From the NCBI GenBank assembly GCA_016794595.1, contig JAEUJN010000076.1:62001-126000 (forward strand): a stretch of DNA of 64,000 bases, given 5' to 3'. Numbering within the stretch: the stretch's first letter is position 1; each line of letters starts with the position of its first letter. The notes under the pieces were generated by a model. It was not told the DNA's origin and ran no database searches. It saw only the letters and a program-made list of their open reading frames with translations. Origin of the DNA: Kineosporiaceae bacterium (GTDB lineage Bacteria; Actinomycetota; Actinomycetes; Actinomycetales; Kineosporiaceae). The position numbers were made by a program, and so were the translations under genes. Shown here piece after piece: positions 10,558 to 62,839 of this stretch.

Positions 10558-11352
10558 ATGCCGCCCACTCCCCCGATCCTGACCGTCGCCGAGCACGCCG
10601 AGGGCCTCGGGGACGCCGTGGCCGTGATCCGGGCCAATGCGGTCGCCGCCGGCCTGGACGCCGTGGTGCCCACCTGCCCGGGCTGGAGCGTCCGTGACCT
10701 GGTCACCCACCTCGGCGTGGTGCACCGCTGGGCGGATGCGGTGCTCACCGGCCGGGTCAGCCCGCCCGCGACCGGCATCGACCAACCCGCCGTCGAGGCC
10801 GAGGCCCGCGCCGCCGCCGACGTGCTCGACTGGCTGGACGACGGGCTGGTCGACCTGGTCAACACCCTGGCCCACTCCCCCGACGACCTCGAGGCCTTCT
10901 TCTTCCTCAGCGACGCCCCACCCGCACGCCAGGCCTGGGCCCGGCGGCAGTGTCACGAGGCGACGGTGCACGCGGTCGATGCCATGTCCGCCCGGCTGCG
11001 GCGCTCGCCGACGGCGGCCGAGACCTGGATCCGGCCCCGGCTGGCCGCCGACGGGATCGACGAGTTGCTCACCGGATTCCTCCCCCGCCGGTCCTCGACG
11101 GTCCGCTCCGAGCAACCGATCAGGGTTGCCGTGCTGCCGGCCGATGTCGAGCAGGCCTGGCTGCTGGACATCGGGCCCGGCCCGGTGGTCGCCACCCGCA
11201 CAGGCACGGACACAGCCGCGGACGTCACCCTGCGGGGCAGCGCGGTCCAGCTCTACCTGGCGCTGTGGAACCGTGGGGAGGAGATCGAGGTCGCAGGGTC
11301 GGACCAGTGGCTGGCCGGCTGGCGCGAGCAGATGCGGGTGCGCTGGAGCTGA
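10558..11352 (+). CDS. Maleylpyruvate isomerase / mycothiol-dependent (DinB-like) family protein
   Basis: A 264-aa protein of the MDMPI family typical of mycothiol producers. The N-terminal half has the conserved VPTCPGWSVRDLVTHLGVVHRW segment and a four-helix DinB-like layout with metal-ligand-type histidines (H in THLG, and H in RRQCHEATVHAVDA around residue 141). The C-terminal domain ends near ALWNRGEEIEV. The exact reaction is unknown; family members isomerise maleylpyruvate or transfer thiols. The ATG has TAGGGT 13 nt upstream, which reuses the stop codon of the kinase gene, so it may be transcribed leaderless as well as by read-through. Confidence 0.82.
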   Translation: MPPTPPILTVAEHAEGLGDAVAVIRANAVAAGLDAVVPTCPGWSVRDLVTHLGVVHRWADAVLTGRVSPPATGIDQPAVEAEARAAADVLDWLDDGLVDLVNTLAHSPDDLEAFFFLSDAPPARQAWARRQCHEATVHAVDAMSARLRRSPTAAETWIRPRLAADGIDELLTGFLPRRSSTVRSEQPIRVAVLPADVEQAWLLDIGPGPVVATRTGTDTAADVTLRGSAVQLYLALWNRGEEIEVAGSDQWLAGWREQMRVRWS

Positions 11353-11386
11353 GTCCCCGAGCGCGCGAGGCGTGGACCGAGACCGG

Positions 11387-12031
11387 TCAGGCTCCCCAGC
11401 CGCTGCTCTGCCGGTTGCTGGCCACCCATGCGGCGGCCTGCGTCCGGCGGCGGAACCCCATCTTGGCCAGCAGGCCGGTCACGTGGTTCTTCACGGTCTT
11501 CTCGGCCAGCCCGAGGCTGGCACCGATCTCTCGGTTGGACAGCCCGTCGCCGATCAGCTCGAGCACCTTCTTCTCGGTCGGGGTCAGCGACTCGGTCGGG
11601 TCGTGGTGGGTGGCCCGGCGCCGGGCCACCGAGCGCTCGTCGAGCAGCACCTTGCCCTGGGCGACCTTGCGCACGACGTCGGCGATCTCGGTGCCCCGAA
11701 CCGTCTTGAGCACGAAGGCGGCTGCCCCGGCGTCGAGGGCCGCCTCGACCGCCTGGTCGTCGTCGAAGGAGGTGAGCACCACGCAGCGAACGTCGGGCTG
11801 GTTCTTGCGCAGCGCCCGGACGACGTCGATGCCCGTGCCGTCGGGCAGTTTCAGGTCGACGATCGCGACGTGGGGGCGTACCGCAGCGGCCCGCCGGACG
11901 GCGTCCACCACCGTGCCGGCCTCGGCCACCACGGTCAGCAGCGGATCGGCGTCCACGACGTCGACCACACCCCGACGGACGATCTCGTGATCGTCGATCA
12001 CCAGCACCCGGACCCGGCTGTCTGCATTCAC
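11387..12031 (-). CDS. DevR/NarL-family response regulator
   Basis: Two-component response regulator of 214 aa. The receiver domain (1-~120) has the acidic pair D13/D14, phospho-acceptor Asp59 in AIVDLKLPDG, Thr in VVLTSFDDD and Lys in FVLKTVRG. The LuxR-type HTH (~150-205) has LTPTEKKVLELIGDGLSNREIG and a recognition helix EKTVKNHVTGLLAKM that matches the DevR pattern. It is the likely partner of the dual-GAF kinase at 8.8-10.5 kb although it lies on the opposite strand. The GTG start has TAGCCT 13 nt upstream and no ribosome-binding site: probably leaderless. Confidence 0.9.
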   Translation of the reverse strand: MNADSRVRVLVIDDHEIVRRGVVDVVDADPLLTVVAEAGTVVDAVRRAAAVRPHVAIVDLKLPDGTGIDVVRALRKNQPDVRCVVLTSFDDDQAVEAALDAGAAAFVLKTVRGTEIADVVRKVAQGKVLLDERSVARRRATHHDPTESLTPTEKKVLELIGDGLSNREIGASLGLAEKTVKNHVTGLLAKMGFRRRTQAAAWVASNRQSSGWGA

Positions 12032-26071: not shown

Positions 26072-26689
26072 TCAGGCCTGGGCCAACCTCTCGGCCAGGG
26101 CATCCAGATAGGTCCGCAGAGCGACACTGAACGCCTCCTCGTCGATCGTCTCGACGTCGGTGACCGCCAGGGCGGCGCGCAGGTTGGGCAGGTCCTCGCC
26201 GACCTGGTCCAGATCGGCGAAGCCCAGGATGAAGACGTCCATCGCCGAGCCGAGCACGATGTAGTCGAGCAGGGCCATGAACCGCATCGCCTCGGGGCGA
26301 GGCAGGCCGAGGCGCTCCAGGGCGCCCGCCTGGCCCTCGTAGACGCGCAGGGCCAAACGGGCGTGCAGCGGCCTGCGGACGACGACCGGCAGCACATTGG
26401 GGTGGTCGAGGAACGCCTGCCGATAGGAGCGAGCGAACCGTTCGATCCCGCGCCGCCAGTCGGCGTCGGCGAGGGCGGACAGGTCGATCCGGGAGTCGAC
26501 CAGGTCGTGGACCAGCTCGATCACCTCGTCCAGCCCACTGACGTGGTGGTACAGCGAAGGGGCCTGGACGCCCAGCCGCTGGGCCAACGGGCGCATGCCG
26601 AGGCCTGCGGGGCCGTGCTCGTCGAGCAGTTCCAGGGCCGCAACGGCGATCCGGTCCCGGCTGATCAGTGCCCGCGCTGGACGACCCAT
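26072..26689 (-). CDS. TetR-family transcriptional regulator
   Basis: A 205-aa repressor. The N-terminal helix-turn-helix is GLGMRPLAQRLGVQAPSLYHHV, very like TetR-type regulators. The C-terminal ligand domain resembles the tetracycline-repressor class (FLDHPNVLPVVV, LDYIVLGSAMDVF). It is divergent from the NCS1 permease operon, with a palindrome over the permease promoter between them, so it probably controls that operon; the inducer is unknown. GGAGG lies ~11 nt before the ATG. Confidence 0.9.
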   Translation of the reverse strand: MGRPARALISRDRIAVAALELLDEHGPAGLGMRPLAQRLGVQAPSLYHHVSGLDEVIELVHDLVDSRIDLSALADADWRRGIERFARSYRQAFLDHPNVLPVVVRRPLHARLALRVYEGQAGALERLGLPRPEAMRFMALLDYIVLGSAMDVFILGFADLDQVGEDLPNLRAALAVTDVETIDEEAFSVALRTYLDALAERLAQA

Positions 26690-26744: not shown

Positions 26745-26788
26745 GCCTTACAGCGTGACCTGCGACACAGCGTGGCACGGCCCGAGCC

Positions 26789-26826
26789 ATGGGAGGACCA
26801 TCACCGTCTGCCCCGGCCCCTCCCAT
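26789..26826 (+). other. Hairpin in the long leader of the permease operon
   Basis: Perfect 8-bp stem ATGGGAGG/CCTCCCAT with a 22-nt loop, inside the ~155-nt leader between the predicted transcription start and the permease ATG. A CCACACCGGT direct repeat follows just downstream. Function unknown; it matches no riboswitch I can recognise. Confidence 0.4.
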
Positions 26827-26904
26827 CCACACCGGTCCACACCGGTCCACCCGTCAGACCCTGCGCCGCCTCCTCTTCTCGCCTCCTCACCGACAGGACC
26901 GCAG

Positions 26905-28374
26905 ATGCGCACTGACAACACTCCCCCCGACATTCCCCCCGACGAGGCGCCCGAGGCACTGCAGCCGCCCGGGATCGAGCTGCACTCGATCGACTACGTC
27001 CCGGCCACCGAGCGCCATGGCAAGGTCTCGCACCTGGGCGCGATCTGGTTCGTCAGCAACATCAACCTGACAGCCATGGCCACCGGGATCACCGCACTGA
27101 GCATCGGGGCGGGTCTGACCTGGACGATCATCGCCACCGTGATCGGCTCGCTGTTCGGCACCTTCTTCATGGCCTTCCACTCCGCGCAGGGCCCGCAACT
27201 CGGGCTGCCGCAACTGGTGCAGTCCCGGCCACAGTTCGGCTACCTCGGTGCTGCCGTCACGGTCTGGGTGTTCGCCCTGGCCAACTACATCGCCTACAAC
27301 ACCTCCGACGCGATCCTGTCCGGCGATGCCTTCAACGCGCTGTTCGGGATCGACACCAACATCGGCTATTTCCTGGCTGCGGCCGTGGCGGCCCTGGTGG
27401 CGCTTTACGGCTATCACTGGATCCACCGGATCAACCGCTGGCTCACCTGGCCGCTGCTCGCCGTCATGGTGCTGCTCACGATCGCCGCGCTGGTCACCGT
27501 CGACGTGCCGGACGGCGCGTACGCTCTCGGCGAGTTCCGGGCCGCCCCGTTCATGACCGTCTTCGTCATCCTGGCCGGCTTCCAGCTCGGGTGGGCCCCG
27601 TACGTCTCGGACTACTCCCGCTACCTGCCGGCGCAGGTCGGCGTGCGCTCGACCTTCTGGTGGACGTACCTGTCCAGTGCCATCTCCGGGTTGTGGGTGT
27701 TCGTCATCGGCTCCATCTCCTCCGCCGTCGCGGGGCCCGACGCCACGCCGGTGCAGGCGTTCAAGGCCGTCGGCGACAGCCTGTTCCCCGGGTTCGGCTG
27801 GATCGCCGTGTTCGCCCTGCTGATCGGATTGCTGTCGGTGATGGCGATCAACCAGTACGGGGGGATGATGTCGATGATCTCGATCCGGGACTCGATCAAG
27901 CCGGTGCAACCGAGTCGGCGGATCAGGGCGATCGGCATAGGAGCGATGTTCCTCGTCGTCTGGGCGATCGCGCAGTTCGTCGGCGTCGAGCGGTTCAACC
28001 TGTTCTACGGCAACGTGTTGATCTTCCTGGCGTACCTGTTCACCCCGTGGACGGCGATCAACCTGGTGGACTACTTCTTCGTCCGGCGCGGGTTGTACTC
28101 GATCCGGGAGATGTTCTCCCCGAACGGGATCTACGGCAGGTGGGGCTGGCGCGGGCAGACCGCCTACCTGGGGACGCTGGCCGTCATGGCGCCGTTCATG
28201 GTGACCACGCCGTTCACCGGCCCGGCGGCCACGGCACTGGGTGGCGTGGACTACTCCATGTTCATCGGCCTTCCGGTCGCGGGCCTGCTCTACCTGTGGC
28301 TGAGCCGCGGCATCGACCTGGCCGCAGAACGTCGGATCGTCGAGGCAGAGGGGCTGCTCACCGGTGTCCACTGA
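26905..28374 (+). CDS. NCS1-family nucleobase/ureide permease
   Basis: A 489-aa secondary transporter with about 12 hydrophobic helices. Family motifs include GAIWFVSNINLTAMATG, the substrate-site stretch SAQGPQLGLPQLVQSRPQFG, ANYIAYNTSDAIL and the later FTPWTAINLVDYFFVRRG. NCS1 carriers move purines, pyrimidines, hydantoins or allantoin with Na+ or H+. The ATG at 26905 gives the usual acidic cytosolic N-terminus; an upstream in-frame GTG adds only Pro/His-rich residues inside the leader. Its 3' end overlaps the amidohydrolase gene by 11 nt, so uptake and hydrolysis are probably linked. Confidence 0.9.
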   Translation: MRTDNTPPDIPPDEAPEALQPPGIELHSIDYVPATERHGKVSHLGAIWFVSNINLTAMATGITALSIGAGLTWTIIATVIGSLFGTFFMAFHSAQGPQLGLPQLVQSRPQFGYLGAAVTVWVFALANYIAYNTSDAILSGDAFNALFGIDTNIGYFLAAAVAALVALYGYHWIHRINRWLTWPLLAVMVLLTIAALVTVDVPDGAYALGEFRAAPFMTVFVILAGFQLGWAPYVSDYSRYLPAQVGVRSTFWWTYLSSAISGLWVFVIGSISSAVAGPDATPVQAFKAVGDSLFPGFGWIAVFALLIGLLSVMAINQYGGMMSMISIRDSIKPVQPSRRIRAIGIGAMFLVVWAIAQFVGVERFNLFYGNVLIFLAYLFTPWTAINLVDYFFVRRGLYSIREMFSPNGIYGRWGWRGQTAYLGTLAVMAPFMVTTPFTGPAATALGGVDYSMFIGLPVAGLLYLWLSRGIDLAAERRIVEAEGLLTGVH

Positions 28375-30073
28375 CCCGCAGTCCCTGCGTCAGCCCTCCG
28401 TCGGGCAGGCTCCCACCGGCCCGGCTGACCTGATCCTCACCGGCGGCCGAATCTGGTTGGGGGGCAACCGCACCGCCGAGGCGGTGGCGGTCCGGGGTGA
28501 CCGGATCGCCGCCACCGGTCGTGAGGTCGACGTGCTCGCCATGGCCGGGTCCGGCACCCGGGTGATCCGAACAGCCGGCTCCCTGGTGCTGCCGGGCTTC
28601 CAGGACAGCCACGTCCACGCCCCGTTCGCCGGACGCCACCAGTTGCGGGTGTGGCTGAACGACCTGGCGGGCAAGCAGGCCTATCTGGAGGCCGTTGCGG
28701 CCTACGCCGCAGCCCACCCCGACGAGCCGTGGATCGTCGGTGGAGGCTGGGCCATGGAGTTCTTCCCCGGCGGGCTGCCCCGCAAGGAGGACCTCGACGC
28801 CGTCGCCGGTGACCGCCCGGTGTTCCTGTTCAACCGCGACGTGCACGGCGCATGGGTGAACAGCAGGGCGCTCGAGCTCGGTGGCATCGGCCCCGGTACG
28901 CCGGATCCTGCCGACGGGCGGATCGAACGCGACCGGGACGGGACGCCGTCCGGGTGCCTGCACGAGGGCGCCGCGTACTCCTTCAACGACCACGTGGTTC
29001 CCGTTCCGTCCCAGGCGGAGTGGGAGGCCTCGATCCTGCAGGCGCAGCGCCACCTGCACGCCCTGGGGATCACCGGCTGGCAGGACGCCTGGGTGACCCC
29101 GGCCACCGAGGCCGCCTACCGGGTCCTGGCCGCGGACGGACGGCTGACCGCCCGGGTGGTGGGGGCACTGTGGTGGGACCGGCACCGTGAGCTCGACCAG
29201 ATCGCCGACCTGCTCACCCGCCGTGAGCAGTCCCGGGACGCCGCGGCGCGCTCCGGGTCCGGCGTCCCGGGCTTCCACCCCACCTCGGTCAAGATCATGA
29301 CCGACGGGGTGCTGGAGAACCATACCGGTGCGCTGCTGCAGCCCTACTGCGACGGCTGCGGCGGCACCACCGACAACCACGGCCTGTCCTACCTCGACCG
29401 CGAACTGCTCGCCGCCGCACTCACCTCGCTCGACGGGCACGGCTTCCAGGTGCACCTGCACGCCATCGGCGACCGGGCGGTGCGCAACGCGCTGGACGCC
29501 GTCCAGGCCGCGCGCCAGGCCAACGGGGCGAGCGATCGCCGCCACCACATCGCCCACCTGCAACTGGTCCAGCCGCAGGACGTTCCCCGCTTCGGCGAAC
29601 TCGGCGTCGTGGCCAACTGCCAGGCCCTGTGGGCCCAGAACGATGCTCAGATGGAGGAGCTGACCCTGCCCTTCCTCGGCCGCGAGCGCGCCGAACTGCA
29701 GTACCCGTTCGCCTCGGTGCGCTCCGCCGGAGCCCGATTGGCGATGGGCAGCGACTGGTCGGTGAGCACCGCAGACCCGTTGGCGCAGATCGAGATCGCG
29801 GTCACCCGGCGGGGACGCGGCGAGCCACCGCTGCTTCCCGGCGAACGGTTGGACCTCCCGGTCGCCCTGAGCGCCTTCACCGCCGGTTCGGCGTACGTCA
29901 ATCACGACGACGAGGCCGGCGTGATCGCCCCCGGCCGGCGGGCCGACCTGGCCGTGCTCGACCTGGACATCCTGGCCGACGGCTTCGCCGGCCCGCAGAG
30001 CGCCCCGATCGCCGATGCCTCGGTGGTGCTCACCGTGGCCGCGGGTCGCGTGGTCCATGATCGGACATCGTGA
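28364..30073 (+). CDS. YtcJ-like metal-dependent amidohydrolase
   Basis: A 569-aa member of the amidohydrolase superfamily (Amidohydro_3 group). The metal-binding HxH is in LPGFQDSHVHAPFAGRH. Later ligands are in QVHLHAIGDRAV, HHIAHLQLVQP and the Asp of AMGSDWSV. The small beta-sandwich domain is formed by both ends of the chain (LILTGGRIWLGG and ADLAVLDLDIL). YtcJ-type enzymes hydrolyse amide or formamide bonds of varied substrates, and the substrate here is unknown. It sits between the NCS1 permease and urease-like genes, overlapping both (11 nt and 4 nt), pointing to one pathway. Confidence 0.88.
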   Translation: MSTDPQSLRQPSVGQAPTGPADLILTGGRIWLGGNRTAEAVAVRGDRIAATGREVDVLAMAGSGTRVIRTAGSLVLPGFQDSHVHAPFAGRHQLRVWLNDLAGKQAYLEAVAAYAAAHPDEPWIVGGGWAMEFFPGGLPRKEDLDAVAGDRPVFLFNRDVHGAWVNSRALELGGIGPGTPDPADGRIERDRDGTPSGCLHEGAAYSFNDHVVPVPSQAEWEASILQAQRHLHALGITGWQDAWVTPATEAAYRVLAADGRLTARVVGALWWDRHRELDQIADLLTRREQSRDAAARSGSGVPGFHPTSVKIMTDGVLENHTGALLQPYCDGCGGTTDNHGLSYLDRELLAAALTSLDGHGFQVHLHAIGDRAVRNALDAVQAARQANGASDRRHHIAHLQLVQPQDVPRFGELGVVANCQALWAQNDAQMEELTLPFLGRERAELQYPFASVRSAGARLAMGSDWSVSTADPLAQIEIAVTRRGRGEPPLLPGERLDLPVALSAFTAGSAYVNHDDEAGVIAPGRRADLAVLDLDILADGFAGPQSAPIADASVVLTVAAGRVVHDRTS

Positions 30074-30855
30074 GACTGACCCCGGCAGAGAGAGATCGGG
30101 TGCTGATCGCCTCGGTGGCCGCCATCGCCCGGCGGCGGCGCGAGCGCGGGCTGGCGCTCAACCTGCCCGAGGCCACGGCACTCATCTGTGATGAGGTGAT
30201 CGAGGCCGCCCGCGACGGCGCCCGCCTCGCCGAGGCGGTCCGGCGAGCCTGCGGCGTCCTCGGCCCGGGCGACGTGCTGCCCGGGGTGGCCGAGATGCTC
30301 CCCGAGGTCGCCGTCGAGGCGGTCTTCGACGACGGCACCCGGCTGGCGGTCGTTCCCCACCCGATCACGGACGGCCCTGGGGGGCCCGAGGACCTGACAG
30401 CACCGGGAGCGCCCCCGCCGGCCGAACCCGTTCCCGGCGAATCCGTTCCCCCCGAACCCGAACCGGGCGCACTGCGCGTGCTCGTGCGCAACGAGTCCCA
30501 GGTACCGATCACGGTGACCTCACACTGGCACTTCTTCGAGGCCAACCCCCGGTTGCGTTTCGACCGCGCCGCCGCCTACGGCCGGCGGCTGGCCGTGCCG
30601 GCCGGCCAGGGGGTGCGATTCGCCCCGGGTGCGGTCAGAACGGTCGACCTGGTGCCGTTCGGCGGGCGCCGGGTGCTGGTCGGTTTCGCCGGTCTGGTGG
30701 ACGGCGAGCTCGACGACCCCAGGGTGCGCGAGGAGGCACTGCGCCGGGTGCGCGCGTTCGGCTACGCCGATGTCCCCGAGCCCGACCGGGACCCCGACCG
30801 GGCAGGGCGGCCTGCCGCTCCCGACGGCCAACCCGACCCGGACGACGCACGATGA
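30070..30855 (+). CDS. Fused urease gamma-beta subunit (UreA-UreB) homologue
   Basis: One 261-aa chain combining two urease subunits. Residues ~1-100 are UreA-like (MRLTPAERDRVL, LNLPEATALICDEVIEAARDG, LPEVAVEAVFDDGTRL). A Pro/Glu/Gly-rich linker covers ~101-135. Residues ~136-240 are UreB-like (VRNESQVPITVTSHWHFFEANP, LRFDRAAAYG, VPFGGRRVLVGFAGLVDGELD). Gamma-beta fusions are known in other bacterial ureases. The GTG overlaps the amidohydrolase stop (GTGA) and the stop overlaps ureC (ATGA). No ureDEFG maturation genes are in the window. It forms the structural partner of the divergent alpha subunit that follows. Confidence 0.88.
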   Translation: MRLTPAERDRVLIASVAAIARRRRERGLALNLPEATALICDEVIEAARDGARLAEAVRRACGVLGPGDVLPGVAEMLPEVAVEAVFDDGTRLAVVPHPITDGPGGPEDLTAPGAPPPAEPVPGESVPPEPEPGALRVLVRNESQVPITVTSHWHFFEANPRLRFDRAAAYGRRLAVPAGQGVRFAPGAVRTVDLVPFGGRRVLVGFAGLVDGELDDPRVREEALRRVRAFGYADVPEPDRDPDRAGRPAAPDGQPDPDDAR

Positions 30856-32543
30856 GCCGGCGCGCAGACCCCACGGTCTACGGCCCGACGGCGGGTGACC
30901 GGATCCCCCTCGGCGACACGGGGCTCGTGCTGGGCGTCGACGTGGACGACAGCCTGCCCGGCGAGGAGTTCCTGATCGGGTTCGGCCGAACCGCACGCGA
31001 CGGCCAGCACTTCCGGGCGGTCCCGATCGAGGGGAGCCCTTCGTCCGGCTCTGCGCCGCCGGTCGAGCTGGTGGTGAGCAACGTCGTCCTGCTCGACCCG
31101 GTGCTCGGGGTGCGCAAGACCTCGATCGGCATCCGCGGCGGCCGGGTGAGCGCCATCGGCCGGGCCGGCAACCCCGACGTGCTGGACGGCGTGGAGGTGG
31201 TCACCGCGACCGGCACCGCGGTGGTCAACGGAGAGGGGTTGATCGCCACCCCGGGCGGCATCGACACCCACGTTCACCTGCTCTCGCCCAGGGTGCTCGA
31301 GGCCGAGCTCAGCTCCGGCATGACCACCGTGATCGGCCAGGAGTACGGGCCGATGTGGGGAGTCGGGGTCAGCGACCGCACCGGCCTGCACCACGTTCTC
31401 GCCGCGGCCGAACACTGGCCGGTGAACCTCGGCTGGCTCGGCCGCGGCAGCTCCTCTCGACCGGCCGGCCTGGTCGAGGCGCTGGTCAACGGCGCCTGTG
31501 GGTTCAAGGTGCACGAGGACACCGGCGCCCATCCGCGGGCCCTCGACACCGCCCTGCGGGTGGCCGACGAGCACGACGTCCAGGTGGCGCTGCACACCGA
31601 CGGACTCAACGAGGCGGGCGATGTGACCCGAACCCTGGCCGTGCTCGCCGGGCGCGCCGTCCATGCCTTTCACGTCGAGGGCTGCGGCGGCGGGCACGCC
31701 CCAGATGTGCTCGGCCTGGCGGGGGTGTCCACCGTGCTCGCCTCCAGCACGAACCCGACCCTGCCCTTCGGCCGCGACAGCACCGCCGAGCACCTGGCCA
31801 TGATCATGAAGGCTCACGGCCTCTCTGCTCAGGTGGCACAGGACCGGGCCAGGGCTGCCGACCGGATCCGGGCCGCCACCATGGCCGCCGAGAACGTGCT
31901 GCACGATCTCGGGGTCATCCCGATCACCTCCTCCGATGCCCAGGGCATGGGCCGGGCCGGGGAGACCTTCGCCCGCACCTTCGCCCTGGCCGCCGCGATG
32001 AAGGCCACTCGCGGTCCGTTGGACGGCGATGGGGACCGTTGCGACAACCGGCGAATCCTGCGCTACCTGGCCAAGCTGACGCTCAATCCGGCTCGGGCGC
32101 ACGGTCTGGACCACGAGGTCGGCTCACTCGAGCCGGGAAGGCTCGCCGACATCGTGCTGTGGCACCCGGCGTGGTTCGCGGTCAAGCCGAACCTCGTGCT
32201 CAAGGCCGGCTTCCCGGCCTGGGGACTGACCGGGGACCCGAACGCCACCATCGACCATGCGCAGCCGCTGGTGTACGGGCCTCAGTTCGGTGGCCTCGGC
32301 GCCACGCCCGCGCGGCTCGCCGTCCATTTCGTCTCGGCGGCCTACGACGGACAGTGCCCCACGGGACGCCGCGCGGTGACGGTCCGCGGGTGTCGCCGGG
32401 TGGACCTGCACGCGATGGCCCACCACGGTCGGGTGGGCGAGGTCGAGGTCGAGGTGGGCGGTCACCGGGTCACCCTGGACGGGGACCTGCTGACCTGCCC
32501 CCCTGTGCAGGAGATGGCCCTGTCCCGGCGCTACCTGCTCTGA
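30852..32543 (+). CDS. Divergent urease alpha-subunit homologue (UreC-like metallohydrolase)
   Basis: A 563-aa protein collinear with UreC. All dinuclear-metal ligands are present: His140/His142 (DTHVH), carbamylated-Lys equivalent Lys219 with His221 (GFKVHED), His248 (ALHTDGLNE), His274 (FHVEGCGGGH) and Asp362 (SSDAQ). The catalytic flap His322 and Arg338 are kept. Other pocket positions differ from classical urease (Klebsiella numbering, from memory): flap Cys319 is Ala321, Ala167 is Val173, Ala363 is Gly365, and the loop GTGPAAGT is replaced by EYGPMWGV. It may hydrolyse a compound other than urea, or be a weak urease. Co-translated with ureAB (ATGA overlap). No nickel-insertion genes nearby. 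Confidence 0.87.
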   Translation: MSRRADPTVYGPTAGDRIPLGDTGLVLGVDVDDSLPGEEFLIGFGRTARDGQHFRAVPIEGSPSSGSAPPVELVVSNVVLLDPVLGVRKTSIGIRGGRVSAIGRAGNPDVLDGVEVVTATGTAVVNGEGLIATPGGIDTHVHLLSPRVLEAELSSGMTTVIGQEYGPMWGVGVSDRTGLHHVLAAAEHWPVNLGWLGRGSSSRPAGLVEALVNGACGFKVHEDTGAHPRALDTALRVADEHDVQVALHTDGLNEAGDVTRTLAVLAGRAVHAFHVEGCGGGHAPDVLGLAGVSTVLASSTNPTLPFGRDSTAEHLAMIMKAHGLSAQVAQDRARAADRIRAATMAAENVLHDLGVIPITSSDAQGMGRAGETFARTFALAAAMKATRGPLDGDGDRCDNRRILRYLAKLTLNPARAHGLDHEVGSLEPGRLADIVLWHPAWFAVKPNLVLKAGFPAWGLTGDPNATIDHAQPLVYGPQFGGLGATPARLAVHFVSAAYDGQCPTGRRAVTVRGCRRVDLHAMAHHGRVGEVEVEVGGHRVTLDGDLLTCPPVQEMALSRRYLL

Positions 32544-35838: not shown

Positions 35839-36747
35839 TCAGGCCTTCTTGGCCGCGGTCCGCCGGGCGGGGGTCTTGGCAGCCGTGGTGCGCTTGGCCG
35901 GGGCCTTGGTGGCAGCGGCCTTCGCCGGAGCCTTGGTGGCAGCGGCCTTCGCCGGAGCCTTGGCCGCTGTCCGCGCCGGGGCCTTGGTGGCAGCGGCGCG
36001 TGCCGGGGCCTTGGTGGCCGCGGCGCGAGCCGGGGCCTTGGTGGCAGCGGCGCGTGCCGGAGCCTTGGTGGCCGCGGCGCGAGCCGGGGCCTTGGTGGCC
36101 GCTGCCTTGGTGGCCGCAGCCTTCGCCGGGGCCTTGGTGGCGGTCGTCTTCGTGGCAGTGGCACGCGCCGGAGCCTTGGCCGCAGCAGCGCGAGCCGGGG
36201 CCTTGGTGGCGGCAACCTTGGTGGCAACGGCCCGTGCCGGGGCCTTGGTGGCAGCAACCTTGGTGGCGGCAGCCTTCGCCGGGGCCTTGGTCGCGGTGGC
36301 CCTGGTGGCGGTCGCCTTGGTGGCGGTTGCCTTTGCCGGGGACTTGGCGCCGGTCGCCTTGGCGGCCGCGGCCTTCGTGGCCCGGCCACCTGCCGCGGCG
36401 GCCACGGTGGCCGCGCGAGCGGCGCTCCGGGCGGCCGTCGTGGCGGACACGGCGGCCACCTTGGGCAGCGACTTGGGGTCTGCCACGTACATCTTGAACG
36501 CGGTGCCGGGCTTGAACCGGGGCACCGACGTCTTCTTGATCTTCACCGTGGCGCCGGTGCGCGGGTTACGCCCCACCCGAGGCCCGCGCACTGTCTTCTC
36601 GAACGAACCGAAGCCCGAGATGGCAACCTTCTCGCCGCGTGCGACGGCACGCGTCACGGTGTCCACGATCGCCTCGATCGCGTCGGCCGCGGCCTTCCTG
36701 CTGCCGAGACGCCCTTCGAGCGCCGCGACGAGTTCTGCCTTGTTCAC
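35839..36747 (-). CDS. hup: HU-family nucleoid protein with very long Lys/Ala/Pro tail
   Basis: Histone-like DNA-binding protein of 302 aa. Residues 1-~90 are a standard HU fold (MNKAELVAALEGRLGSRKAAA, ISGFGSFEKTVRGPRVGRNP). The remaining ~210 residues are a basic, low-complexity tail of repeats such as AATKAPARA, similar in type to mycobacterial HupB and streptomycete HupS but about twice as long. Tails of this kind bind DNA like histone H1. The GTG at 36747 has GGAGG 8 nt upstream. A 7-bp-arm dyad lies in the leader. Confidence 0.95.
   Translation of the reverse strand: MNKAELVAALEGRLGSRKAAADAIEAIVDTVTRAVARGEKVAISGFGSFEKTVRGPRVGRNPRTGATVKIKKTSVPRFKPGTAFKMYVADPKSLPKVAAVSATTAARSAARAATVAAAAGGRATKAAAAKATGAKSPAKATATKATATRATATKAPAKAAATKVAATKAPARAVATKVAATKAPARAAAAKAPARATATKTTATKAPAKAAATKAAATKAPARAAATKAPARAAATKAPARAAATKAPARAAATKAPARTAAKAPAKAAATKAPAKAAATKAPAKRTTAAKTPARRTAAKKA
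35848..36360 (-). repeat. Degenerate tandem repeat encoding the HU tail
   Basis: Repeats built on a GCCTTGGTGG core on the plus strand, encoding ATKAP(A/K)(R/K) units. Around 36000-36100 the repeat has an exact 27-bp (9-residue, AATKAPARA) period for about four copies, the pattern expected from recent slippage. Confidence 0.85.
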
Positions 36748-37048
36748 AGATGTCCTCCGGTACACGGTGTCGAGCGCGGTGCTCGACCTCGACATGACGG
36801 TATTCCGCCAAAGCATGAATCGTCCAACATCGTCAAGACCCTGAGCCCTTGTGTCGTAACGATTACCCCGCCCTCCGGAGTCGATTCCGAGGCCCTGCGG
36901 CGGGTTCCCGGGGGCGCCTCCCAGACCCCCAACTGGCGCTGACGCGCCAACGGGTGGGCCGTCTCACCCGAGCCACCGGCCGCGTCCCCGAGGTCGGGAC
37001 AGCCGCTCGTCGACGACCAGAATCGTTGTCGTGGTAGGGGTTTGGTTC
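36748..37048. other. hup leader/promoter region and leuD-hup spacer
   Basis: A 301-nt gap without a credible gene. It holds the hup leader with a perfect dyad GTCGAGC-5 nt-GCTCGAC at 36769-36787, and TTGACG/TTGGAC-like -35 sequences on the minus strand around 36810-36840 that may serve hup. A short TGGCGC-TGAC-GCGCCA hairpin near 36932-36947 may end leuD transcription. The rest shows nothing I can assign. Confidence 0.45.
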
Positions 37049-37701: not shown

Positions 37702-39120
37702 TCAGGACGACGTGGCGGGCTCGAGATCCGCGGGGCTGGACAGCGTGCCCCGGACCGCAGTGGCCGCAGCGACCAGGGGCGAGACCAGGTGGGTCCGGCC
37801 GCCCTTGCCCTGGCGTCCCTCGAAGTTGCGGTTGGACGTCGAGGCCGAACGCTCCCGGGGCGCCAGCTGATCCGGGTTCATCCCCAGGCACATCGAGCAC
37901 CCGGCATTGCGCCACTCGGCGCCGAAGTCCCGGAAGACCTTGTCCAGCCCCTCGGCCTCGGCCTGCTGGCGCACGCGCTCGGAGCCCGGAACCACCAGTA
38001 CCCGAACGCCGTCCGCCTTGACCCGCCCCTGCACCACCTCCGCAGCGGCCCGCAGGTCCTCGATCCGGCCGTTGGTGCACGAGCCGATGAACACCGTGTC
38101 CACCGCGATCCGGCGCAACGGGGTTCCCGGGGTCAGCCCCATGTACTCCAGGGCCCGCTGGGCCGCCGATCGTTCGCTCTCGTCGTCCAGCTCGGCCGGG
38201 TCGGGGACCGAGGCCGACAGCGGAAGGCCCTGCCCCGGATTGGTTCCCCACGTCACGAACGGCTCCAGGTCGGCCGCGTCGAACACCACCTCGGCGTCGA
38301 AGGTGGCATCGGCGTCGGTCTGCAACTGCGACCAGGCGGCCACCGCAGCGTCCCAGTCGGCCCCGGACGGCGCGTGCGGGCGGCCCTTCAGGTAGTCGAA
38401 CGTGGTCTGGTCCGGGGCGATCATCCCCGCCCGCGCCCCGGCCTCGATCGACATGTTGCACACCGTCATCCGGGCCTCCATGGACAGCGCGCGGATGGCC
38501 TCACCGCGGTACTCCAGGACGTATCCCTGGCCGCCACCGGTGCCGATCCGCGCGATGACCGCCAGGATGATGTCCTTGGCCGTGGCTCCCTGCGGCAAGG
38601 ACCCGTTGACGGTGACCGCCATGGTCTTGAAGGGCTTGAGCGGCAACGTCTGCGTGGCCAGGACGTGCTCGACCTCGCTCGTGCCGATCCCGAACGCCAG
38701 CGCCCCGAAGGCGCCGTGGGTCGAGGTGTGGGAGTCACCGCAGACCACGGTCATCCCGGGCTGGGTCAGGCCCAGCTGCGGCCCGACGACATGCACGATG
38801 CCCTGTTCCACATCGCCCAACTGGTGCAGCCGCACCCCGAACTCGGCGCAGTTCGTCCGCAGGGTCTCGAGCTGGGTGCGACTGACCGGGTCGGCGATGG
38901 GCCGATCGATGTCGGTGGTCGGCACGTTGTGATCCTCGGTGGCCAGGGTGAGGTCCGGCCGGCGCACCGGGCGGCCGGCCAGGCGCAGCCCGTCGAAGGC
39001 CTGGGGACTGGTCACCTCGTGGATCAGGTGCAGGTCGATGTAGAGCAGATCGGGCTCACCGCCGGCGCCGGTGCGGACGACGTGTGCGTCCCAGACCTTC
39101 TGTGCCAATGTGCGTCCCAC
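37702..39120 (-). CDS. leuC: 3-isopropylmalate dehydratase large subunit
   Basis: Aconitase-type [4Fe-4S] enzyme (472 aa) isomerising isopropylmalate. [28 protein letters not shown], the cluster cysteines in FIGSCTNGR and GCSMCLGMN, and [11 protein letters not shown] are present. The GTG at 39120 is preferred because GGGAGGAG lies 8 nt upstream and the protein then starts [13 protein letters not shown], as is standard. It is divergent from the IclR-type regulator with a palindrome between the genes. Confidence 0.96.
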
Positions 39121-39200
39121 GGCTGCTCCTCCCGGGCGTTCGACGGCGAGGTGTCCCTCGTCGACCACAGCGTGCTCCTCCGGGTCACCGATACGCTCTT

Positions 39201-39221
39201 GCGTCTCACGGGTCGAGACGC
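39201..39221. promoter_or_regulatory. Candidate NdgR (IclR-type) operator between leuC and its regulator
   Basis: Perfect inverted repeat with 7-bp arms GCGTCTC and GAGACGC around a 7-nt spacer, 12 nt before the regulator ATG and 80 nt before leuC. The position suits combined autoregulation and control of leuCD. NdgR is known to bind this intergenic region in Streptomyces; assigning this exact repeat is inference. Confidence 0.6.
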
Positions 39222-39233
39222 GAATATCAGCGA

Positions 39234-39989
39234 ATGGACACCGCGCCCCTCGACGCCGCCCTCGACCCCCCTGACCGGGCGGGCAGTGGGGTCGGCGTAC
39301 TGGACAAGGCGGCCACGGTGCTCGGGGCACTCGAGGCCGGCCCCTGCAGCCTGGCCCAGCTGGTGGCGGCCACCGGCCTGGCCCGGCCCACCGCCCATCG
39401 GCTGGCCGTCGCCCTGGAACACCACCGGCTGGTGGGGCGGGACCTTCAGGGCCGCTTCATCCTCGGCCCCAGGCTCGGCGAACTCGCTGCCGCAGCAGGT
39501 GAGGATCGCCTGCTCGCGGCCGCCGGCCCGGTGCTGAACGCCCTGCGCGACCACACCGGGGAATCCGCCCAGCTCTACCGCCGCCAAGGCGATGCCCGGG
39601 TCTGCGTCGCGGCGGCGGAACGCCCGATCGGCCTGCGGGACTCGATCCCGGTGGGCTCGACCCTGACCATGCTGGCCGGGTCAGCCGCCCAGGTGCTGCT
39701 CGCCTGGGAGGAACCGGACCGGCTGCATCGCGGACTGCACGGAGCCCGCTTCAGCGCCACCACGCTGTCCGGTGTGCGCCGGCGAGGCTGGGCTCAGTCC
39801 CTCAGCGAGCGCGAGCCGGGCGTGGCCTCGGTCTCGGCCCCGGTGCGCGGGCCTTCCGGCCGGGTGGTGGCCGCGGTGTCGGTGTCCGGTCCGATCGAAC
39901 GCTTCACCCGGCAGCCCGGCCGCCAGCACGCCGGGGCCGTGGTGGCCGCCGCGGGTCAGCTGACCGCCGTCCTGCGCGCGGGAGGGTAG
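39234..39989 (+). CDS. ndgR: IclR-family regulator of leucine biosynthesis (NdgR-like)
   Basis: A 251-aa regulator. The N-terminal winged helix has [40 protein letters not shown]. The C-terminal effector domain has [41 protein letters not shown]. Its position divergent from leuCD is that of NdgR/LtbR, which controls leucine and other amino-acid genes in actinobacteria. The ATG at 39234 follows an AT-rich GAATATCAG stretch, and no clear ribosome-binding site is visible. Confidence 0.9.
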
Positions 39990-60289: not shown

Positions 60290-62839
60290 ATGACCGGCCA
60301 GCACGACGCGCCCCCGGCGAGCGCCCTGCCACCCCACCCGCTGCCCTGGCACGATCCCGCCAGGCCGGTCGAGGAGCGGGTCGAGGCCCTTCTCGCGGCC
60401 ATGACCCTCGAGGAGAAGGTCGCCCAGCTCGGCAGCCGGTGGGTCGGCAACGACATGCAGGGATCGGACCCGACCCCTGCGCCCGACGTCGAGCCGGGCG
60501 TCCAGCCAGGTGTCGAGCCGGGCGTCGAGCCGGGCTCCGACCACACCCTCAACGTCGCGCCCCTGCAGGACGTGTTCGCCGCAGGCCACGCCGTCCCGCT
60601 GGAGGTCGCCGCCGCCCACGGCCTCGGCCAGCTCACCCGGATCTACGGCAGCCGTCCGGTCACGGTGGCGGACGGCGCGGCGCAGGTGATCCGCCAGCAG
60701 GAGGTCGTGCTGGCCCACAGCCGGCTGGGGATCCCCGCGATCGTCCACGAGGAGTGCCTGACCGGGTTCACCGCCTACGGCGCGACCGTCTACCCGGCAG
60801 CCATCGCCTGGGCCGCCACCTTCGACCCCGCGCTGGTCGAGCGGATGGCCGCGGCCATCGGGCACGACATGGCCGCACTCGGTGTGCACCAAGGACTGTC
60901 GCCGGTGATGGACGTCGTCCGCGACCACCGCTGGGGCCGGGTCGAGGAGACCATGGGCGAGGACCCCTTCCTGGTCGGGACGCTCGGCGCCGCCTACGTC
61001 CGCGGGCTCGAACGGGCCGGGGTGATCGCCACCCTCAAGCACTTCGCCGGGTACTCGGCCTCGCGCGCGGCACGCAACCACGGCCCGGTCTCGATGGGGC
61101 GGCGCGAGCTGCTCGAACTGATCCTGCCCGCCTTCGAGATGGCCATCGCCCTCGGTGGCGCGCGCTCGGTGATGAACTCCTACGCCGACGTGGACGGCAT
61201 CCCCGCCGGTGCCGACGCCTGGCTGCTCACCGAGGTGCTGCGCGAGGAGTGGGGCTTCACCGGAACCGTGGTCTCCGACTACTGGGCCGTGCCGTTCCTG
61301 GCCACCATGCACCGCGTCGCCGCGACCGCCGAGGACGCCGGCGCGCTGGCGCTCGCGGCCGGCATCGACGTCGAACTGCCCGACACCATCGGCTTCGGAC
61401 CGTCCCTGGTCGAGCGGGTGCAGCGCGGCGAGCTCGACCCCGCCCTGATCGATCGGGCCGCGCGCCGACACCTGCGGCAGAAGGTGGAACTGGGGCTGCT
61501 GGACCCGGACTGGACGCCAGAAGCCTCCGTCGCCCGGTCCCGTGAGGTGGATCTGGATGCGCCGGTTCACCGCGAGATCGCCCGCGAGCTGGCCGAGCGC
61601 TCGATCGTGCTCCTCGACCCCGGCACGGCGTTGCCGCTGCGGGCGCCGGATCGCCCCCTTCCGGGTCGGATCGCCGTGGTCGGACCGTGCTCGGACGACC
61701 CGAGGACGTTCATGGGCTGCTACGCCTTCCCCAACCACGTGCTCCCCCGCTACCCCGACAAGGGCCTGGGCGTCGAGGTGGTGAGCGCCGTGGACGCCCT
61801 GCGCAGGGAACTCGACCCGCAGTTCGCGCCGGGCGATGATCAGAGCCCGGTGGACGTCGTCCACGCCCGGGGATGTGACGTGCTCGGTGAGGACCGCGGC
61901 GGGTTCACCGAGGCGGTCGAGGCCGCTCGGGGCGCGGACCTGTGCATCGCCTACGTCGGTGACCGGGCGGGCCTGTTCGGCCAGGGCACCTCCGGTGAGG
62001 GCTGCGACGCCGCCGACCTGCGCCTGCCCGGCGTCCAGGAGGACCTGCTCGATGCCCTCCTGGCCACCGGCACCCCCGTGGTCGTGGTGGTGGTCTCGGG
62101 GCGCCCGTACGCGCTGGGCGCGGTGGCGGGTCGCGCCGCGGGACTCGTCCAGGCGTTCATGCCCGGGGAGGAGGGTGGCGCGGCGATCTCCGGGGTACTC
62201 TCCGGGCGTGTCCAGCCCAGCGGGAAGCTGCCGGTCCAGGTCCCGCGGGGGCCGGGTGGCCAGCCCGCGACCTACCTCCAGCCGCCGCTCGGGGCCTCGG
62301 TCAGCGCCGGCATCAGCAACCTCGACGCGGCACCGCTGTTCCCCTTCGGACACGGTCGGTCCTACACCTCCTTCGCCATCGGCCGGTTGCGGTTGTCAGC
62401 CGTCGACGTGCCGACCGACGGCGAGCTCGCGGTGAGCGCGCGCGTGACCAACATCGGACCGCGGGCGGGTGAGGAGGTCGTCCAGCTCTACCTGCACGAC
62501 GTCCTGGCGTCCGTGACCCGACCGGTGCGGCAGTTGGCCGGATTCGCCCGGGTCCGGCTCGAGCCGGGCGCGGCCGTCGATGTCACCTTCCGCGTGCACG
62601 CCGATCGGACGGCGTTCGTCGGACCGGACCTGCGTCGGGTCGTCGAGCCGGGTGAGGTCGAGGTGTTCGTCGGATCCTCTAGCCAGGATCTGCCGTGCCA
62701 CGGCGTGGTCCGGTTCAGCGGCCCGCCGCGCGTCGTCGGCCACGACCGCCGGCTGGACACCCCCGTCGAGCTGGTCCCGGTCGGCGGTTCCGGGGCGAAC
62801 ACCGCCGCTGCCCCGGTCAGCGGGTGGCGAGCAGAGTGA
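60290..62839 (+). CDS. Glycoside hydrolase family 3 (beta-glucosidase/xylosidase-like)
   Basis: An 849-aa cytoplasmic enzyme (no signal peptide) with the GH3 order: N-terminal barrel (LGIPAIVHEECLTGF, VMDVVRDHRWGRVEETMGEDP, LKHFAGYSASRAARNHGP), nucleophile Asp in TVVSDYWAV, the alpha-beta sandwich (IAVVGPCSDD, YVGDRAGLFGQGTSGEG), and a C-terminal fibronectin III-like domain (GRSYTSF, VTNIGPRAGEEVVQLYL). Near residues 67-82 sits a VEPG/VQPG repeat. GGGAG lies 6 nt before the ATG. It probably hydrolyses imported beta-linked oligosaccharides. Its stop overlaps the LacI gene (GTGA). Confidence 0.93.
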   Translation: MTGQHDAPPASALPPHPLPWHDPARPVEERVEALLAAMTLEEKVAQLGSRWVGNDMQGSDPTPAPDVEPGVQPGVEPGVEPGSDHTLNVAPLQDVFAAGHAVPLEVAAAHGLGQLTRIYGSRPVTVADGAAQVIRQQEVVLAHSRLGIPAIVHEECLTGFTAYGATVYPAAIAWAATFDPALVERMAAAIGHDMAALGVHQGLSPVMDVVRDHRWGRVEETMGEDPFLVGTLGAAYVRGLERAGVIATLKHFAGYSASRAARNHGPVSMGRRELLELILPAFEMAIALGGARSVMNSYADVDGIPAGADAWLLTEVLREEWGFTGTVVSDYWAVPFLATMHRVAATAEDAGALALAAGIDVELPDTIGFGPSLVERVQRGELDPALIDRAARRHLRQKVELGLLDPDWTPEASVARSREVDLDAPVHREIARELAERSIVLLDPGTALPLRAPDRPLPGRIAVVGPCSDDPRTFMGCYAFPNHVLPRYPDKGLGVEVVSAVDALRRELDPQFAPGDDQSPVDVVHARGCDVLGEDRGGFTEAVEAARGADLCIAYVGDRAGLFGQGTSGEGCDAADLRLPGVQEDLLDALLATGTPVVVVVVSGRPYALGAVAGRAAGLVQAFMPGEEGGAAISGVLSGRVQPSGKLPVQVPRGPGGQPATYLQPPLGASVSAGISNLDAAPLFPFGHGRSYTSFAIGRLRLSAVDVPTDGELAVSARVTNIGPRAGEEVVQLYLHDVLASVTRPVRQLAGFARVRLEPGAAVDVTFRVHADRTAFVGPDLRRVVEPGEVEVFVGSSSQDLPCHGVVRFSGPPRVVGHDRRLDTPVELVPVGGSGANTAAAPVSGWRAE
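60488..60535 (+). repeat. Four-unit 12-bp tandem repeat in the GH3 gene
   Basis: Four in-frame units of GTCGAGCCGGGC (one variant with Gln) encoding VEPG, VQPG, VEPG, VEPG, in a loop of the N-terminal barrel domain. Confidence 0.85.

Follow-up and report, generated by a model that had tools for sequence, protein, structure and literature searches.

The 64,000-nucleotide stretch analysed here (the window; positions 62,001 to 126,000 of contig JAEUJN010000076.1 in assembly GCA_016794595.1, from a Kineosporiaceae bacterium) contains a tight, same-strand run of four genes that encode an NCS1-type permease, an Amidohydro_3 metal-dependent hydrolase, a fused UreA-UreB protein (ureAB) and a urease-like catalytic subunit (ureC) (Table 1). 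Successive genes overlap by 4 to 11 bases, the Amidohydro_3 gene overlapping ureAB by 4 bp and ureAB overlapping ureC by another 4 bp. A gene for a TetR-type protein starts 66 bp from the permease open reading frame (ORF) as listed and, from its position alone, probably encodes the operon regulator; the true start of the permease may lie further inside its ORF, at about residue 50. Downstream of ureC, an opposite-strand acyltransferase gene and a CofC-like gene look unrelated. The window UreC belongs to a real, conserved, clade-wide actinobacterial branch of urease-like enzymes, which keeps the catalytic residues of urease, differs from it around the substrate pocket and has been retained in genomes that lack the urease chaperones.

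Table 1. Genes of the urease-like operon and other features mentioned in the text, in window coordinates.
Feature	Position	Strand	Family match or remark
TetR-type regulator	26072..26689	-	Pfam TetR_N/TetR_C_1; divergent from the operon
NCS1-type permease (cytosine/purine/hydantoin/allantoin transporter family)	26755..28374	+	Transp_cyt_pur, E 2e-37; operon gene 1
Amidohydro_3 metal-dependent hydrolase	28364..30073	+	Amidohydro_3, E 2e-79; operon partner
ureAB, fused gamma/beta subunits	30070..30855	+	Pfam Urease_gamma/beta, E 9e-33, 3e-27
ureC-like catalytic subunit	30852..32543	+	Urease_alpha, E 2e-27; Amidohydro_1, E 7e-50
HU-like DNA-binding protein	35839-36816	-	
LeuC/LeuD-like genes	37702-39330		names assigned by eye

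The gamma, beta and alpha subunits are all homologous to urease over their full length. UreAB scores 279.6 bits against the bifunctional gamma/beta model NF009671 (cut-off 243), and the window UreC aligns with solved ureases from end to end (best score 479 bits, 6yl3/4z42) and passes the broad subfamily model NF009686 (668 bits versus 354); against the urease alpha equivalog TIGR01792 it reaches 569.8 bits and the cut-off is 680. A sequence-only reading of the locus had stated that every ligand of the dinuclear metal site is kept (H140, H142, K219, H248, H274 and D362), together with H221, flap H322 and R338, and alignment to the solved ureases bore this out. These nine catalytic residues are invariant in 89 of 89 clade members, and the flap-triad member D223 is also present, in an H-E-D motif that is invariant across 18 aligned clade members. 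Urease-type chemistry is a well-supported prediction for the clade enzymes.

The same reading had described a remodelled pocket, and the alignment agrees: with Klebsiella UreC numbering for the canonical residues, Cys319 is replaced by Ala321, Ala167 by Val173 and Ala363 by Gly365, and the altered loop reads QEYGPMWGV and is followed by a short deletion. V173 and G365 stand where urease has two alanines whose backbone carbonyls hold the NH2 groups of urea; in Sporosarcina urease, the carbonyls of the 173- and 365-equivalent residues accept hydrogen bonds from urea NH2 (PMC7433671). Across the clade, the Klebsiella Ala167, Ala363 and Cys319 sites are occupied by V, G and V/A/S/T, respectively, with Cys retained in 4/89, although some of the canonical comparison sequences vary there too (Val for Cys in 6/21, Gly for Ala363 in 5/21). 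An alanine in the flap, put forward as a marker of the branch, did not hold up, as position 321 is V in 68, A in 12, S in 4, C in 4 and T in 1 of the 89 members. Loss of the Ala365 side chain and of the flap Cys would be expected to enlarge the pocket. An AlphaFold model of the window UreC, made with 18 clade sequences, was poor (mean predicted local distance difference test score, pLDDT, 44).

In a maximum-likelihood tree of 55 sequences, with the root drawn at the midpoint only, the window UreC falls inside a 27-row Actinomycetota clade with support of 100/99. The sister of this clade (L122/L123; 98/92) and the next group (L124/L125; 98/92) are both accessory-less, and the canonical ureases, from actinobacteria, Thermus, Deinococcus, Methylosinus, Hydrogenophilus and one haloarchaeon, lie on the other side (98/92). 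The window protein was thus found outside the canonical ureases rather than nested among them, and the proposal that it represents a distinct UreC branch stands, with the pocket changes extending across the clade. Clade members are ~58-72% identical to the window UreC, and most other UreC proteins are <=53% identical. The residues diagnostic of the clade include Q163, E164, W169, G172 and V173 in the loop that holds Ala167 in urease; R198, S200, G251 and C278; R308-D309 in the flap region and D337 beside R338; and A363 and G365, which lie beside the metal ligand D362. By alignment, most of these changes cluster near the pocket.

Other members of the tree show further variations. In L124 (genome G022) and L125 (G127), most of the Ala167 loop is gone (TAGFE, then a deletion). 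L126 (8345-9973; Nonomuraea sediminis, G411) has a GMGLGGVWDVG loop, a TVH flap and Met for Gln364, and its ureC is followed by a transporter-like gene; this third, long-branched urease-like type groups on the canonical side, and its placement is unsure. Three clade members reside on plasmids (L113, 8282-10647; L114, 8267-10653; L115, 8264-10644) and are 58-60% identical; they have N in place of E164, and S363 and A365 as in canonical urease. All three lie in apparent nonribosomal peptide synthetase (NRPS) clusters (L134 gives a wider view) with adenylation/condensation proteins, a weak match to a B12-binding domain, APH-type phosphotransferases and a 2-oxoglutarate (2OG)-Fe oxygenase. This sub-branch of the urease-like enzyme has possibly been recruited into natural-product/NRPS gene clusters.

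The maturation genes that the sequence-only reading had found missing near ureC are missing from the entire window genome. This genome is 99.4% complete and contains a single Urease_alpha/UreC, and genome-wide searches found no UreD, no UreF and no UreE, and hence no full ureDEFG set elsewhere. The only UreG-like hit in the same genome was rejected as UreG (37.7 bits against a cut-off of 204); it adjoins HypA-like and hydrogenase-like genes and is probably HypB. Genes resembling a [NiFe] hydrogenase with HypA and HypB are seen at L002 (G000 contig C39, ~11275-11793), so that the organism probably handles nickel despite having no urease chaperones.

Fifty further named genomes with clade copies, several of the locus-derived ones metagenome-assembled (the completeness figure exists for the window genome), comprise 13 without and 37 with a canonical UreC. 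Both UreD and UreF are missing in 13/13 genomes that carry only the clade UreC. Where a canonical UreC is present, UreF was found in 37/37 and UreD in 35/37, mostly close to the canonical gene, and UreG above its cut-off was detected only in genomes with canonical UreC (21 genomes tested). UreD, UreF and UreG were not found in the sister-group genomes G208, G022 and G127. Genome G171 has a canonical UreC broken by a stop codon and a remnant of UreD, but its clade copy is open. UreE was also missing in four canonical-urease genomes searched, and its absence is therefore uninformative as a discriminator. The accessory-less genomes (the window genome, the 13 others and the sister groups), together with G171, indicate that the clade has been kept without urease chaperones. 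As an identification, then, urease fails several tests: the curated cut-off, the urea-contact residues, the placement in the tree and the chaperones.

A second feature of the clade is its neighbourhood. In 62 of 80 clade loci, ureC has an agmatine-deiminase-family (PAD_porph) gene within 5 kb, often fewer than 150 bases downstream. In a sample of 25 genomes with deiminase-family genes, 30 of 49 copies have a clade or sister ureC within 10 kb, where ~0.25 would be expected by chance, and none of the 49 has a canonical ureC within that distance. Many of the linked loci are closely related and not independent, but the link recurs, in varied orientation, in Streptomyces, Nonomuraea, Kineosporia, Kribbella and Tetrasphaera-like genomes, and in the sister locus L122 (genome G208) a deiminase-family gene stands 448 bp from ureC; in the L124/L125 group, no deiminase-family gene was found genome-wide. 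The partner proteins tested are clearly PAD_porph, and their best solved match is a plant agmatine deiminase (3h7c/3h7k), over the full length. This neighbourhood suggests a ureido or carbamoyl substrate and is the best evidence for that substrate class.

Within 5 kb of clade ureC genes, an NCS1 permease is found in 28/80 loci and an Amidohydro_3 gene in 12/80. In L033 and L035, where the operon genes stand in the same order, the permease is 75-78% identical to that of the window. In six genomes with an Amidohydro_3 partner (the window genome, G402, G403, G410, G418 and G419), no deiminase-family gene was found genome-wide, and L033, with Amidohydro_3 and NCS1 genes, is the nearest relative in the tree of L034, with two deiminases. 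The Amidohydro_3 partner therefore seems to substitute for the deiminase, although the swap is not strict: in L036-L038 an Amidohydro_3 gene is close by and there are deiminases at other places, and five clade genomes lack both an Amidohydro_3 partner and a deiminase. Consistent with an amine substrate, L036, L099, L130 and L131 have polyamine-type ABC transporter genes in their vicinity (recognised in part by eye), and L036 also has a class III aminotransferase gene nearby. For the Amidohydro_3 partner, look-alikes on plasmids carry little annotation.

We propose, with a probability of about 0.5, that the clade enzymes are UreDFG-independent dinuclear-metal amidohydrolases of the urease fold that act mainly on a ureido (N-carbamoyl) compound, R-NH-CO-NH2, and not on free urea. 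In most of the clade, the agmatine-deiminase-family partner would act first and convert a guanidino group to a ureido group; in the window lineage, the Amidohydro_3 enzyme, fed by the NCS1 permease, would perhaps make the ureido substrate. The urease-like complex would act second, hydrolysing the ureido group by the conserved bridging-hydroxide chemistry to an amine, CO2 and ammonia, with H221 polarising the carbonyl, K219 serving as a carbamylated metal ligand, and D223, H322 and R338 forming the flap triad. Carbamylation of the lysine would be spontaneous, and the metal (Zn, Mn, Fe or Ni) would be loaded without UreDFG; several other amidohydrolases carbamylate lysine without chaperones. One may speculate that the clade-wide E164 binds a cationic end of the substrate.

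The proposed logic is that of the AguA-AguB pathway, in which the ureido compound made by a deiminase is decarbamoylated by a second enzyme (PMC9397018), with the urease-fold enzyme in the second role. AguB itself is a nitrilase-family enzyme, unlike the urease-fold enzyme, and none of 38 clade genomes contains an AguB above the TIGR03381 cut-off (best 262 bits versus 410). At slightly less than even odds, the clade would constitute an unrecognised urease-fold decarbamoylase family that acts after a deiminase as a non-orthologous stand-in for AguB, with an active site assembled without UreDFG and with a sub-branch in NRPS clusters. We set aside the absence of AguB as proof of displacement.

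Several points weigh against the ureido proposal. AguB-like C-N hydrolases below the cut-off are present, which makes that absence weak evidence, as a decarbamoylase is not strictly missing. The partner deiminases fall below the AguA equivalog TIGR03380 (267-296 bits versus 381.8), so their substrate may be something other than agmatine. No gene of the deiminase family was found in the window genome. In the open-access literature, we found no biochemical study of the clade and no measured activity or metal for any of its enzymes. Finally, if the partner deiminase used free guanidine, its product would be urea and the clade enzyme would be a real urease.

The last point leads to an alternative that we regard as serious but rather unlikely, in which the enzyme is a true urease acting on free urea, loaded spontaneously or by HypA/HypB in place of UreDFG, and urea is supplied by the deiminase partner, acting on guanidine or another small molecule of that kind. 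The complete metal site and flap triad are consistent with it, as are the HypB-like and HypA-like genes of the window genome, the HypA and HypB carried by one Deinococcus urease cluster, the importance of HypA/HypB for Helicobacter urease (PMC7055735) and the RefSeq label of the plasmid relatives, 'urease subunit alpha'. However, the urea-contact positions are changed clade-wide and the TIGR01792 cut-off is missed; next to the clade genes we recognised no urea transporter, in contrast to several canonical reference clusters, which contain urt genes; and no guanidine riboswitch was found in five loci (the window and four relatives). A different substrate is suggested by the permease, since NCS1 permeases carry flat N-heterocycles and their genes recur at the frequency given above: a cyclic or unrelated amide, for instance a hydantoin- or allantoin-like compound imported by NCS1, with Amidohydro_3 and the deiminase acting later or in parallel. 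The three plasmid copies, whose NRPS clusters include a 2OG-Fe oxygenase but lack an annotated deiminase, would also suit such a substrate. Most loci, however, have no NCS1 gene, some have ABC transporters of polyamine or Opp/Dpp type in place of it, and the deiminase link is far stronger, making this explanation improbable.

An ordinary urease matured by accessory proteins whose genes lie at another locus of the genome would be feasible in the 37 genomes that also hold a canonical cluster, but neither the window genome nor 13 others encode UreD, UreF or a true UreG. For the window genome this explanation is already refuted, unless the helpers have diverged beyond recognition, and for the clade we consider it very improbable. 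It is harder still to credit that the clade protein is a urease remnant, inactive or structural: although many Streptomyces also have a canonical urease, the catalytic residues are invariant throughout, and the clade copy is retained in 14 genomes with no other UreC and in G171 beside a broken one.

Compared with canonical nickel urease (UreABC of Klebsiella, Yersinia and Sporosarcina), the window pair has the same subunit set, the same fold by homology, the metal ligands and the flap His-Asp-Arg triad, but the window UreC is only ~43-53% identical, has changed urea contacts, has lost the flap Cys and has a loop deletion, and the pair occurs without UreDEFG and outside a urea-transport context. 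A parallel for a urease variant with no need of Ni chaperones is the Helicobacter iron urease UreA2B2, which uses a different metal. That enzyme hydrolyses urea, and its host organisms also carry a Ni urease with accessory genes.

Clusters with ure(AB)C only were drawn for S. coelicolor and S. avermitilis in 2008 (PMC2492869), and ure(AB)C was counted as a functional urease type in a 2017 study (PMC5489568); the parts of those papers that present ure(AB)C mention neither the altered pocket residues nor the deiminase link, nor that UreDFG is missing from the whole genome. A study of ArgR assigned SCO5525-5526 to urea utilisation and, without linking the two, listed SCO5527 with the homologues of the arginine decarboxylase (ADC) pathway (PMC3293853). 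The Streptomyces ure(AB)C pairs (SCO5525-5526 and relatives) are probably of the same kind as the window pair, SCO5525-5526 being likened to it by literature description and not by alignment.

Urease is the textbook chaperone-dependent nickel enzyme, and a widespread actinobacterial branch with an intact site and no chaperone genes would offer a way to ask which properties of urease make it depend on chaperones. Among the urease-fold enzymes characterised in the literature searched, we found none that acts physiologically on a substrate other than urea. The substrate proposal, at about even odds, is testable; if it is true, many Streptomyces 'urease' annotations would be wrong, including some used to infer urease capacity (PMC5489568).

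Streptomyces clade loci (e.g. L046 and L083) are found among leuB-, ilvE- and cimA/leuA-like genes (named by eye), and LeuC/LeuD-like genes occur ~5 kb downstream in the window; the ure locus may ancestrally have stood beside leucine synthesis genes. Between ureC and these genes, the HU-like protein of the window carries a long, low-complexity Ala/Lys/Pro tail of KAPA-type repeats.

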